The notes under the pieces: model-generated
What the model saw: only the letters and a program-made list of their open reading frames with translations
Told to the model about the DNA's origin: nothing
The model's database searches: none
In this document: positions 3,620 through 6,242 of the stretch, piece after piece
Layout: each line of letters begins with the position of its first letter
Position numbering within the stretch: position 1 is the stretch's first letter
DNA from: an uncultured Pelagibacteraceae bacterium
GTDB taxonomy: Bacteria; Pseudomonadota; Alphaproteobacteria; Pelagibacterales; Pelagibacteraceae
Length of the DNA: 64,000 nucleotides
Assembly (NCBI GenBank): GCA_902540235.1
Contig: CACBLI010000003.1
Coordinates: forward strand, 1-64,000
Direction: 5' to 3'
Position numbers and translations under genes: made by a program

Positions 3620-5695
3620 ATGAAAGTACCACATCTTAGAAAAAAACCAGAAATAAAATCTTGTCACAACACTACATGGGAAGACAATTATAGCTGGATA
3701 CATCAAAAAAATATTTTAGAGATTTTAAAAGACAAAAATAAATTAGATCCTGAAGTAGAAAGATATTTAAATGAGGAAAATGAGTACACTAATCATCATC
3801 TAAAAGATACAAAGGATTATCAAAAAAAATTATTTGATGAAATTAAAGCACGAATTAAACTCGATGATGAGTCTTTACCTTTTAAAGATCATACCTTCGA
3901 ATACTGGACAAAGACAACTTCTGAAGGAAATTACTCTATTAAATTAAGAAAAAAAATAGGTACAAATGAAATTGAGGAAATATGGAACGGAGATAAAGAA
4001 AAAGAAAAATTAGGTGTAGAATATTTTGGCATTGGGGATCTTGAGGTAAGTCATGATGATAAATATTTAGCTTACTCTCTTGATATTAAAGGATCAGAGT
4101 ATTTTTCAATATTTATTAGAGAGATAGCTAACAATAAAATAATCTCTAAAGAAATCACCGACACATCCGGAAGCATACTTTTTAGCCTGGATAACAAATA
4201 TATTTTTTACTCAAAATTGGACAAAAATCACAGAGCAAGAAAAATTTTTAGACACGAGATAGGAAATTTTCAAAATACCGATGAACTAATTTTTGAGGAA
4301 AAAAGTGATGCTTTTACAGTTGGAATAGCCTTAAGCTCAGATGAAAAATACTATTTTATCTCAACTTCTGACCACAATACTTCAGAGCAATATTTCTTCA
4401 AAGTCGATGAAAAAAAACCTCAACCAAAAATAATTAAAAAAAGAAAAAAGGGTATTTTATACTCTGTTAGTTCTTGGGATAATAAATTTTATAATCATAC
4501 AAATGAAGGGGCAGAAGATTTTAAAATAGAAATTTCAGAAAGTCTTGAAAATCAAAAATGGAAATCTTTTATAAAACCAAAAAATGAGGTTTTAATTGGA
4601 AGCTGTATTTTTTTAAAAAATTGGATGATTCGATCTGAAACATCTAACGCGTTAGATAGATTATTCGTAAGACATATATCAAAAGAGTCAGAGGAAGAAC
4701 TGATTATTTCAAATGAAAAAGTTTGCGTTCCAAATATTTCTTTACGGCAAAAAGATAGAAATACTGATGAAGTTTATATTGGTTACTCTAGCCCAAAAAC
4801 TCCATCACGTGTTTACTTATATAATCTCTCTAAAAAAACTAAAAAATTGGTTAAAGAGCAGATAATTCCCTCAGGACATAATCCTAACGATTACGTTGTT
4901 GAAAGAATTGAATTTGAATCTCATGATGGAAGATTAGTGCCTCTTACTATAACCAGGCATAAAAAAACGAAGCTAGATGGATCAGCTAATTTATTGTTAT
5001 ATGGATATGGTTCTTATGGAAATTCAATAAGTCCAAGTTTTTCCTCAACACGATTAAGTTTGATAAATAGAGATATAATTTGGGCAACTGCACATATAAG
5101 AGGTGGCATGGAAAAAGGTATGAAATGGTGGAAAGAGGGTAAGCTTACTAATAAAAAAAATACTTTCGAAGATTATATATTTGCAGCAAAATATTTAATT
5201 CAAAATAAATATTCTAGTCGAGGAAAAATAATTGGTATGGGTGGTTCTGCTGGAGGTTTATTAATGGGTGCAGTGGTTAATCAAGCTCCAGAGTTATTTT
5301 TAGGAATTATAATGGCAGTTCCTTTTGTTGACTCTTTAACTACTAATTTAGATCATTCTTTACCTTTAACAATTGGAGAATTTGATGAATTTGGAAACGC
5401 AAAAGATAACAAAGAACATTTTGATTATATATTTTCTTATGCTCCCTATAATAATATTAAAAAAATGGATTATCCTAATATGTTAATCACGACAAGTTTA
5501 AGTGATAATAGAGTATTATTTGACGAACCAACAAAGTTTACAGCAAAACTCAGAGATTTTAAAACTGACAATAATTTATTACTTTTAAAAACAGAAATGA
5601 GCGCGGGTCATGGTGGTAAATCTGGAAGAGATGGTGCTATAGAGGAAATTGCATTGGATTATGCATTCGCATTAAAGATATCAAAAAAAATTTGA
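3620..5695 (+). CDS. ptrB: Prolyl oligopeptidase family serine peptidase (oligopeptidase B-like)
   Basis: A 691-residue S9A peptidase with an N-terminal beta-propeller (roughly 70-415) and a C-terminal alpha/beta-hydrolase domain. The nucleophile is S543 in GGSAGG. The likely Asp is D629 in SDNRVLFDEP and the His is H664 in SAGHGGKSG, giving a complete triad in the usual order. The start resembles oligopeptidase B (P-x-x-x-KK followed by D-x-Y-W). No signal peptide is visible, so it should cleave short peptides in the cytoplasm, classically after basic residues. Length fits the family. It stands alone between a divergent J-domain gene and hsp20. Confidence 0.87.
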   Translation: MKVPHLRKKPEIKSCHNTTWEDNYSWIHQKNILEILKDKNKLDPEVERYLNEENEYTNHHLKDTKDYQKKLFDEIKARIKLDDESLPFKDHTFEYWTKTTSEGNYSIKLRKKIGTNEIEEIWNGDKEKEKLGVEYFGIGDLEVSHDDKYLAYSLDIKGSEYFSIFIREIANNKIISKEITDTSGSILFSLDNKYIFYSKLDKNHRARKIFRHEIGNFQNTDELIFEEKSDAFTVGIALSSDEKYYFISTSDHNTSEQYFFKVDEKKPQPKIIKKRKKGILYSVSSWDNKFYNHTNEGAEDFKIEISESLENQKWKSFIKPKNEVLIGSCIFLKNWMIRSETSNALDRLFVRHISKESEEELIISNEKVCVPNISLRQKDRNTDEVYIGYSSPKTPSRVYLYNLSKKTKKLVKEQIIPSGHNPNDYVVERIEFESHDGRLVPLTITRHKKTKLDGSANLLLYGYGSYGNSISPSFSSTRLSLINRDIIWATAHIRGGMEKGMKWWKEGKLTNKKNTFEDYIFAAKYLIQNKYSSRGKIIGMGGSAGGLLMGAVVNQAPELFLGIIMAVPFVDSLTTNLDHSLPLTIGEFDEFGNAKDNKEHFDYIFSYAPYNNIKKMDYPNMLITTSLSDNRVLFDEPTKFTAKLRDFKTDNNLLLLKTEMSAGHGGKSGRDGAIEEIALDYAFALKISKKI

Positions 5696-5704
5696 TAATC
5701 TAAT

Positions 5705-5733
5705 CTTGAAAAAAAATAATTAGTAACCATATA
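5705..5733 (+). promoter_or_regulatory. Sigma-32-type heat-shock promoter candidate for hsp20
   Basis: CTTGAAA at 5705-5711 is followed after 13 bp by AACCATAT (5725-5732). This matches the RpoH consensus CTTGAAA-N13/14-CCCCATnT closely. The predicted transcription start is near 5740, exactly where the first leader hairpin begins. Assigned by eye; no expression data. Confidence 0.6.
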
Positions 5734-5739
5734 AATTCT

Positions 5740-5791
5740 GTAAGTTGCCTGATGGGGCTTACATAAATTAACTTGCTTAATATTAAGGAGG
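5740..5791 (+). promoter_or_regulatory. ROSE-like RNA thermometer in the hsp20 leader
   Basis: Two hairpins fill the predicted leader. Hairpin 1 pairs GTAAG (5740-5744) with CTTAC (5758-5762), extended by TT/GG and CC/GG pairs around a bulged G5747 and a TGAT loop. Hairpin 2 pairs TTGCT (5773-5777) and TA (5778-5779) with TA (5784-5785) and the Shine-Dalgarno AGGAG (5786-5790), with an ATAT loop. The TTGCT/AGGAG duplex contains an internal G.G opposition, which is the hallmark of ROSE thermometers (anti-SD UYGCU facing AGGA). ROSE elements repress small heat-shock genes in rhizobia at low temperature by hiding the ribosome site. Pairing was done by hand. Confidence 0.6.
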
Positions 5792-5795
5792 AAAA

Positions 5796-6242
5796 ATGAC
5801 AAGTAAGGACTTATCTATATTTAATTCTCTTAGGCCTTTTTCTATTGGTTTTGATGATATGTTCGACCAATTTGAAAATATGCTGGGGAATGGTGCTTTG
5901 ACTATGCAGTCAAACTACCCGCCATATAACATCAGAAAAACTGGAAAGGATAATTATGCTATAGAATTAGCTTTAGCTGGTTTTAACAAAAAAGATGTTG
6001 AGGTTGAGTTTGAGGATAATTTATTAACAGTAAGAACGAAACAGGTTAATAAATCTGAGGACAATAACACAGATGGTGAGATCATTCATAAAGGTATTTC
6101 TCAAAGACAATTCGCGCGATCATTTACTATTGCTGATGATGTAAAAGTTAATGGTGCTGAACTTAAAGATGGTCTTTTGACAATATCTTGTGAAAGAATT
6201 GTTCCAGAGCATAAGAAGAAAAAACTTATTGATATCAAATAA
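5796..6242 (+). CDS. hsp20: Small heat shock protein, Hsp20/IbpA family
   Basis: A 148-residue alpha-crystallin-domain chaperone of the IbpA class, which binds unfolding proteins without ATP and holds them for DnaK/ClpB. The crystallin domain spans about 42-135: YNIRKTGKDNYAIELALAGF, then KKDVEVEFEDNLLTV, closing with VKVNGAELKDGLLTISCER. The start begins SIFNSLRPFSIGFDDMFDQF, the usual IbpA N-terminus. The ATG at 5796 follows a strong AAGGAGG. That ribosome site is part of a ROSE-like hairpin and lies behind a sigma-32-like promoter, so control by both transcription and temperature-sensitive translation is likely. A clear terminator follows at 6253. Confidence 0.93.
   Translation: MTSKDLSIFNSLRPFSIGFDDMFDQFENMLGNGALTMQSNYPPYNIRKTGKDNYAIELALAGFNKKDVEVEFEDNLLTVRTKQVNKSEDNNTDGEIIHKGISQRQFARSFTIADDVKVNGAELKDGLLTISCERIVPEHKKKKLIDIK

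Follow-up and report, generated by a model that had tools for sequence, protein, structure and literature searches.

A probable two-hairpin ROSE-type control element in the hsp20 leader of SAR11 bacteria, shared with marine phages

The hsp20 locus and its leader

SAR11 bacteria and their phages are among the most numerous organisms of the sea. We analysed a stretch of 64,000 nucleotides (nt) from an uncultured SAR11 bacterium of the family Pelagibacteraceae (contig CACBLI010000003.1 of assembly GCA_902540235.1, positions 1 to 64,000; hereafter the window), in which an hsp20/ibpA-like small heat-shock protein gene is preceded by a short leader that probably is a ROSE-type translational control element. 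The gene occupies positions 5796..6242 of the forward strand, on which all features described here lie, and encodes 148 amino acids (aa), as judged from its open reading frame (ORF) and family profile matches. The IbpA model was the best match to the protein, though with a score under that model's curated cut-off, and no other PF00011 gene was found in the assembly, which spans 1.16 Mb and is 90% complete. The best 80 of 567 hsp20 relatives in named genomes all belong to Pelagibacteraceae, Pelagibacterales or Candidatus Pelagibacter. An oligopeptidase-B-like gene upstream ends at 5695, and the 100-base gap between this end and the hsp20 start codon (ATG at 5796) contains promoter boxes, a first hairpin, a UUGCU arm and a Shine-Dalgarno (SD) sequence.

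The original prediction had proposed a sigma-32-like promoter. A -35-like CTTGAAA (5705..5711) and a -10-like AACCATAT (5725..5732) can be read in the sequence, separated by a spacer of N13. In 186 of 194 distinct anchorable SAR11 leaders, TTGAA stands 39-42 nt 5' of the G that is bulged in hairpin I, and 140 of the 194 have a CCxATAT-like box. Furthermore, rpoH was found in the genome with 362.8 bits, above its cut-off. At the level of sequence, the locus thus has both a consensus-like promoter at a fixed distance from the leader and the matching sigma factor gene that would place hsp20 in the sigma-32 regulon, in agreement with the proposed promoter. The predicted transcription start lies close to the 5' end of hairpin I (about 5740).

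The leader is 56 nt long and, as the original prediction had read directly from the letters, forms two hairpins with TTGCT opposite the SD sequence. The minimum free energy (MFE) fold of 5739-5801 contains exactly two hairpins at -13.6 kcal/mol, compared to -8.27 kcal/mol (sd 2.17) for shuffled sequences (z -2.46; 2 of 200 equal or better). Hairpin I (5740..5762), defined by the MFE fold and covariation, has nine pairs, a bulged G5747 and an optional outer pair U5739-A5763. Hairpin II (5772..5790), assigned from the MFE fold, the Rfam consensus register and pair counts, comprises C5772-G5790, U5773-A5789, U5774.G5788, the bulged G5775, C5776-G5787, U5777-A5786, U5778-A5785 and A5779-U5784. Its 5' arm carries the ROSE motif UUGCU (5773..5777; TTGCT in DNA), the anti-SD sequence, recognised by its conservation at SAR11 loci, and its 3' arm the SD sequence AAGGAGG (5785..5791), evident in the sequence and likewise conserved. 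In an alternative register seen on folding, the hairpin ends at G5791 and G5775 faces G5788. This G.G opposition, which had been predicted, is indeed present in the MFE fold, but it is one of two registers, and the Rfam ROSE_3 consensus uses the other, with G5775 bulged and U5774.G5788 paired.

A search with the Rfam ROSE covariance models, as originally proposed, gave a partly positive answer. ROSE_3 (RF02523), which we take to be the Pseudomonas short ROSE family, matched 5739-5801 with 35.1 bits (E 1.4e-5 for 500 bases and 7.4e-6 for the genome) over its full length, model positions 1-69 of 69, including the two-hairpin consensus, but under the cut-off of the family. No Rfam family exceeded its own cut-off anywhere in the window, and ROSE (RF00435) and ROSE_2 (RF01832) gave no match up to E 10 in positions 5500-6000. 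Among 197 genomes of the family Pelagibacteraceae, none reached the ROSE_3 gathering score under stricter filters, and the window alone was matched at E 0.05. The Rfam model, rather than the element, appears to limit detection, because the motif and the SD sequence are present at nearly all loci, as described below.

Conservation, covariation and distribution

The SAR11 loci were drawn from 136 of the 197 family genomes (the other 61 yielded no hsp20) and, in an overlapping set, from named genomes (80 loci). After exclusion of one duplicate of the window's locus, 219 loci with 205 distinct 62-nt strings were examined. Both U(U/C)GCU and the SD sequence were found at 216 of the 219, as TTGCT in 212 and TCGCT in four, and an SD match at 218; the exceptions were L188 (at a contig end), L141 (a distant second copy) and L076 (with a UGUCU form). 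The strict pattern of hairpin I was observed at 189 of the 219 loci, and a looser anchor at 211 of the 216.

Alignment of the leader across relatives, which had been proposed as a check, revealed compensatory changes for hairpin I. In 42 representative SAR11 leaders, both-side changes that keep the pair were detected in eight of its nine pairs. Over the whole structure, 39 cells carried a compensatory change, compared to 10.4 after shuffling and 3-21 with the arms slid, and the covariation score was 0.315 versus 0.188 for shuffles (0 of 500 as high), with slid controls at 0.058-0.114. The SD and anti-SD arms of hairpin II also vary together in their extension beyond the core, with a mean of 1.712 in 59 distinct SAR11 hairpins versus 1.425 for re-dealt arms and of 2.333 versus 1.857 in 36 viral hairpins (0 of 2000 in both cases); in the close phage pair L239/L249, an extra U in the arm is accompanied by an extra G after the SD sequence. 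The leader therefore displays the features by which a ROSE element is recognised: a U(U/C)GCU motif pairable with the SD sequence and one unpaired or opposed G, placement in a small heat-shock gene leader (in the SAR11 genome and in phages), and helices with compensatory changes, for hairpin II through the outer-arm association alone. Together, the sequence-structure match, these changes and the motif conservation bear out the predicted ROSE-type element.

A SAR11-only covariance model, R1, was built from the SAR11 leaders, the window leader being in the training set. R1 scored the window at 71.3 bits and the next-best place in the genome at 20.1 bits. Over 385 genomes of the class it gave 22 matches, 17 of them outside the family, of which 11 precede hsp20; the remaining six do not and were taken as chance. 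The R1-like elements directly before hsp20 in other alphaproteobacterial families (L314-L321, L324, L326 and L328) lie in assemblies of 1.1-1.6 Mb, except for that of L324 (2.4 Mb).

Hsp20 relatives were also detected at 68 loci in viral contigs and in 505 phage records, mainly from Synechococcus, Prochlorococcus, Pelagibacter and Methylophilales phages. R1 was run on 82 loci, comprising all 68 viral-contig loci and 14 phage records picked from the top of the list. In three of these (L273, L288 and L289) the contig begins inside the gene and there is no leader, and three of the other 79 leaders are partial. R1 matched at the hsp20 start in 75 of the 79 at E <=1, including 66 at E <=0.01; the unverified 'Pseudomonas phage' record L297 is among these 75. 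No match at the hsp20 start was observed among the 79 for L274, L278, L279 and L301 (phage MED4-213), and matches away from this start occurred at L274, L226 and L229. When 13 records (11 isolates and two viral contigs) were searched end to end, the hsp20 leader was the best place in 12, in HTVC008M by a small margin (24.4 versus 22.6 bits), while MED4-213 gave no R1 match along its whole length and its ROSE_3 match is below threshold. Another 15 phage records, evenly spread over the list (14 without A11a, see below), provided 13 R1 matches at the hsp20 start at E <=0.011, bringing the phage records examined to 29 of 505. Within this set S-TIM66 had no match at the hsp20 start, and in Sf-CH3 the annotated hsp20 start lies upstream of that implied by the match. 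The carriers include pelagiphages, an OM43 phage and cyanophages. With Rfam, none of 13 isolate-phage leaders reached the cut-off, two (L294 and L301) matched below it, and five viral contigs scanned gave no match up to E 1.

Two database entries differ from these phages. 'Campylobacter phage A11a' (L332, MG065691.1) was set aside as a phage: its hsp20, in which residue 93 is Arg, presumably resembles enterobacterial ibpA. This record and 'Pseudomonas phage Y7' (L297, OQ572409.1), both of them unverified, each carry a bacterial-ibpA-like hsp20 with its own ROSE-like leader, which is perhaps host DNA. L297, with 69.2 bits to ROSE_3, was used as a Pseudomonas-type yardstick.

Covariation was also observed in the viral and phage leaders. 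When 27 phage leaders were aligned with MAFFT (A2), the part 3' of hairpin I came out misaligned, and the pairs were counted on a model-based alignment (A3) instead, which is fitted to the structure and includes the three off-target matches. Across 58 distinct sequences of the 78 model matches in A3, both-side changes were found in nine of nine hairpin I pairs. The covariation score was 0.543 versus 0.201 for shuffles (0 of 500; slid arms 0.034-0.111), and 170 compensatory cells were counted over the whole structure, compared to 54.5 after shuffling and 13-32 with slid arms.

Two DNA patterns that describe the leader only, derived from already known leaders, were then scanned over the viral collection, some of whose contigs had also supplied the viral loci above. 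Among the matches listed, pattern A was followed by an Hsp20 ORF in 117 cases and cut by a contig end in three, and pattern B by Hsp20 in 104, by a contig end in five and by something else in 11; among these matches the patterns led to hsp20 in 231 of 232 readable cases, the exception being L477. At ten loci (L482, L483, L501, L514, L527, L528, L533, L536, L548 and L580) a small ORF of 69-76 aa lies between leader and hsp20. Three of these ORFs were scanned and match no family well, and one was searched and has no relative in phage records. The small protein was rejected as a second target of the phage element, given that the hsp20 frame begins 149-231 nt after the match in all ten. As for the coding sequences themselves, 41 of 65 viral-contig hsp20 genes begin ATGACCAAT, and in some, for example L224 and L242, an ACC after GGAGGTT could give a GGUU/GACC hairpin round the start codon.

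The phage leaders carry different promoter sequences. Among 49 distinct viral leaders, 27 contain TATAAATA, 21 of them at -17 to -20, and 11 contain TTGAA; among the 194 distinct anchored SAR11 leaders just five have TATAAATA. In T4, transcription starts about six bases from the late box. A viral late-type box would start transcription at the first base of hairpin I, and the SAR11 sigma-32-type boxes point to about the same start. As the promoter differs between SAR11 and phages and the leader is shared, the RNA control seems to have been kept while the promoter changed. The exact late box TATAAATA occurs in pelagiphage-type and OM43-phage leaders and in S-CRM01; it is missing from seven of the eight cyanophage leaders listed, which have related diverged forms instead (TTAAATA, TATAATTA), so that the T4-type reading would be firm only for part of the phages. 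In the literature, TATAAAT is a known T4 late promoter box and hsp20 a core gene of 16 cyanophages, perhaps serving capsid maturation (PMC3037559). Some pelagiphage-type leaders (L292 at 1381-1500, and L224 and L232-L235 upstream of hsp20) display a near-perfect inverted repeat, GGGGGTTG ... CAATCCCC, 5' of the late-promoter-like box, which could be an operator.

In 13 of 75 viral leaders UGUCU replaces U(U/C)GCU; L295 has UCGCU and lacks GGAG. The UGUCU form still folds onto the SD sequence in six distinct hairpins, with the one unpaired G shifted one position outward, opposite an A in four of the six folds and bulged in two. In a tree of Hsp20 proteins (61 rows, built by a quick method, with 23 of the 58 inner branches open and badly set starts in the alphaproteobacterial rows L314, L319 and L324), the UGUCU rows fall in two places divided by a starred branch, L257/L268 on the one hand and L277/L280 with L076 on the other; this form therefore arose twice or moved between genes. 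L076 is a contig of 27,292 bases in a SAR11 bin, where the hsp20 with the UGUCU leader adjoins a phage-like ORF. This upstream ORF presumably resembles a phage-type peptidase, and the contig is therefore probably viral sequence within a SAR11 bin. SAR11 and pelagiphage proteins are mixed within one supported group of the tree, with cyanophages apart, and the virus label changes nine times, at least three of these changes being forced by starred branches. Repeated movement of hsp20 between hosts and phages, in either direction, is likely rather than proved, because three forced changes may equal one gain and two losses.

Pairing with the coding sequence, temperature response and competing explanations

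Most SAR11 hsp20 genes are constrained immediately after the start codon. In the window, codons 1-4 (5796..5807) read ATG ACA AGT AAG, and AAGUAAG (5801-5807) is pairable with CUUGCUU (5772-5778), as supported by synonymous invariance, duplex energy and an alternative fold. Among 208 distinct SAR11 coding sequences, 177 encode a protein that begins with MTSK, in every case as ATG ACA AGT AAG. When 140 codons were scored in 120 coding sequences of equal length, synonymous change was missing from just three, codons 2, 3 and 4, although in these sequences 41% of the Thr codons are ACA, 7% of the Ser codons AGT and 20% of the Lys codons AAG. The mean AAGUAAG:CUUGCUU duplex energy is -8.32 compared to -2.01 for synonymous recodings, of which 3% are as strong (16 arm-start combinations). 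This excess was clear for MTSK starts and one MSKN leader; other SAR11 starts and the phage groups gave no clear excess versus recodings, Melnitz being nearest (8.5% as strong), and coding-region pairing is claimed for MTSK SAR11 only. With 12 coding bases included, this third pairing, of the UUGCU arm with codons 3-4, wins at or below 25 C in the window. Codons 3-4 are thus likely, by these model folds, to be a second partner of the UUGCU arm, enclosing the SD sequence and AUG, although ribosome or protein contacts could also cause the constraint on codons 2-4. Judging by the synonymous constraint, a ROSE-type element may be able to reach into the gene that it controls.

Based on these data, we consider it probable that the leader controls the translation of SAR11 hsp20 as a short ROSE-type element with two hairpins, which marine phages share. 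The sigma-32-type promoter would make an mRNA from about the first base of hairpin I, which may serve as a stable stem at the 5' end, like its counterpart in Pseudomonas. The UUGCU arm of hairpin II is expected to mask the SD sequence through a weak helix broken by one G, so that the ribosome site should become accessible on warming. For most SAR11, codons 3-4 would offer this arm a second possible partner, and marine phages would use the same element on their own hsp20, partly behind a T4-type late promoter box.

Several results weigh against this interpretation. The 35.1 bits obtained with ROSE_3 fall short of the Rfam gathering score of 43 bits; hairpin II is nearly without compensatory change (one of six pairs in the 42 SAR11 leaders), because the SD sequence and the motif hardly vary; and the covariation and arm shuffles ignore shared descent. 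Further points come from nearest-neighbour folding curves of SD openness, a type of model that treats an unpaired or opposed G poorly. With 12 coding bases, the mean unpaired SD fraction of 198 SAR11 leaders was 0.60 at 5 C and 0.57 at 45 C, and upstream-shuffled leaders (the first 80) left the SD sequence less free, 0.48 at 5 C, so that SAR11 SD sequences are not predicted to be specially masked. For the window, this fraction went from 0.98 at 5 C to 0.44 at 45 C, the reverse of a thermometer, because at low temperature the pairing with the coding region prevails. In 71 viral leaders given 30 coding bases, the anti-SD C is paired to the coding sequence at 0.53-0.59 and to the SD sequence at 0.19-0.25, and in 119 SAR11 leaders with as many coding bases the coding-sequence pairing rises with temperature, from 0.33 (5 C) to 0.61 (45 C). 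Hairpin II is weak as well, with an MFE at 37 C of -4.4 kcal/mol in the window and medians of -3.0 in SAR11 and -2.5 in viral leaders versus -4.7 in the Pseudomonas-type leader. Overall, these calculations lean against a simple opening with warming.

Other values are more favourable. The 51 viral leaders with 12 coding bases had unpaired SD fractions of 0.35 (5 C) and 0.37 (45 C), slightly more masked at 5 C than shuffled ones (0.35 versus 0.42), and with 30 coding bases the anti-SD:SD pairing of the window was 0.99 at 5 C and 0.87 at 45 C, masked and in the direction of a thermometer. By the same model the Pseudomonas-type leader, whose relatives are proved thermometers, opened its SD sequence only from 0.01 (5 C) to 0.21 (45 C). 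Published Pseudomonas hairpins have -4.1 to -7.6 kcal/mol, and in Pseudomonas elements of this plan hairpin II opens between 25 and 42 C (PMC3669281). It is on these tested elements that the case for thermosensing rests, by analogy. The original prediction had also expected a melting temperature shifted to low values in a cold-ocean bacterium. Neither part found support: on average the curves stay level, those of the window run in reverse if 12 coding bases are included, and the outcome varies with the length of coding sequence; the nearest hsp20 loci are mostly from AG-/AH- single-cell genomes, and the GORG-Tropics set, to which at least one such name (AG-901-N13) belongs, stems from surface water of 40N-40S (PMC11247762). 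The window may come from warm water.

The absence of predicted masking and melting would suit a different explanation, in which the structure is chiefly a binding site for Hsp20 in negative autoregulation and temperature acts via free Hsp20. E. coli IbpA represses its own translation via the 5'-UTR (untranslated region) and needs arginine 93 for this (PMC10474464), and Arg occupies the corresponding position in 216 of 216 SAR11 and 88 of 89 viral Hsp20 proteins. However, the same Arg also occurs in all 11 further alphaproteobacterial proteins of the alignment, where it could be needed for the fold, and Pseudomonas leaders of the same plan melt in vitro without protein (PMC3669281). As the chief role of the leader we regard autoregulation as unlikely, and yet as a serious addition or rival to RNA melting, with which it may be combined. 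Improbable, by comparison, is that only hairpin I functions, as an mRNA-stabilising 5' stem, with hairpin II a by-product of a strong SD sequence beside a U-rich arm. The concentration of covariation in hairpin I (SAR11 and viral), the predicted weakness of hairpin II and SAR11 SD sequences no more masked than shuffled ones would fit this idea, whereas the retention of U(U/C)GCU at 216 of 219 SAR11 loci, the six UGUCU hairpins that still fold onto the SD sequence and the joint change of outer SD and anti-SD bases speak against it. Ordinary DNA or protein-coding conservation round a strong start site, without RNA function, would agree with an AT-rich genome and compact spacing, but it is contradicted by the compensatory changes in hairpin I (8/9 pairs in SAR11, 9/9 in viral leaders) and by uncommon yet invariant codons 2-4. 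In the neighbouring permease (58 starts), the only wholly invariant codons among the first 12 are Lys AAA, the dominant codon with 98% of Lys there, and we give this explanation hardly any credence.

Beyond the probable ROSE-type element, a broader scenario can be offered tentatively, as possible and somewhat doubtful. Marine T4-like phages, many cyanophages included, might use a ROSE thermometer on hsp20, in some behind a late promoter, which would render late chaperone synthesis temperature-dependent, and SAR11 might possess a three-partner switch with the UUGCU arm choosing between the SD sequence and codons 3-4. Phage and host Hsp20 could also act on each other's hsp20 mRNA, because phage Hsp20 keeps the leader-binding arginine of IbpA.

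Relation to known thermometers and control RNAs

If the element senses heat, SAR11 and its viruses would share a protein-free temperature control of a chaperone gene, and the effect of marine warming on infection would become a testable molecular question. Phage thermometers are so far a handful, lambda cIII, SPbeta blyA and a gut-phage sigma-70 gene (PMC11182007), to which the ROSE class would be added, on a core gene of T4-like cyanophages. Among the literature titles and abstract openings listed, which leave most subscription journals uncovered, no SAR11 or marine-phage hsp20 thermometer was found. The main text of a structured-RNA study of 'Ca. P. ubique' (PMC2704228) contains no words starting with heat, hsp or ibpA, 'thermo' three times (one passage on thermodynamics) and 'rose' once. 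In the available text of two papers on phage small heat-shock proteins (PMC3827213 and PMC5028025) 'untranslated' is absent, 'thermometer' is absent from PMC5028025, and 'thermo' appears once in PMC3827213. The main text of a work on glutamine riboswitches (PMC9004378) names hsp20 once and a thermometer never. These riboswitches, in Melnitz and Mosig, are likewise structured control RNAs of the same marine phages, but they sense a ligand and are not on hsp20, lying in Melnitz with the tmRNA gene (PMC9004378).

As for the phage thermometers, the marine-phage element is similarly a thermometer-type leader in a phage gene, and the gut case is also present in its host. However, the blyA and sigma-70 thermometers are of the fourU type, and none of the three, including cIII, is on a small heat-shock gene (PMC11182007), whereas the marine-phage element is of the ROSE type and precedes a gene described as part of the core set of T4-like cyanophages (PMC3037559). 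ROSE-G also has an unpaired G opposite an SD G, as in the MFE register of the window, but it has CUGCU upstream of ABC-transporter genes where SAR11 has UUGCU upstream of hsp20 (PMC12857270). The phage UGUCU form is a third arrangement beside these two, with the unpaired G one position further out. Classical ROSE elements of rhizobia (RF00435, RF01832) share the UUGCU:SD hairpin before small heat-shock genes, and they have three to four hairpins compared to two in SAR11 (hairpin count from PMC3669281).

The closest known system is the short ROSE of Pseudomonas ibpA, a published two-hairpin ROSE-like thermometer with only two hairpins, a stable hairpin I and U(U/C)GCU opposite the SD sequence in hairpin II, before a gene of the same family behind a sigma-32-type promoter (PMC3669281). 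The minimal two-hairpin version that the original prediction had suggested for SAR11 is thus present, but its plan is not new, and by this plan the SAR11 copy would be a further member. It differs from the Pseudomonas element in being AT-rich, with a weaker hairpin II and a score below the Rfam cut-off, in the complementarity of the UUGCU arm to codons 3-4 in most SAR11, and in being carried by marine phages, partly behind T4-type late-promoter boxes. From the sequence comparisons, the SAR11 copy would accordingly join a known two-hairpin ROSE plan, to which the phage copies and the pairing with the coding region appear to be new additions.

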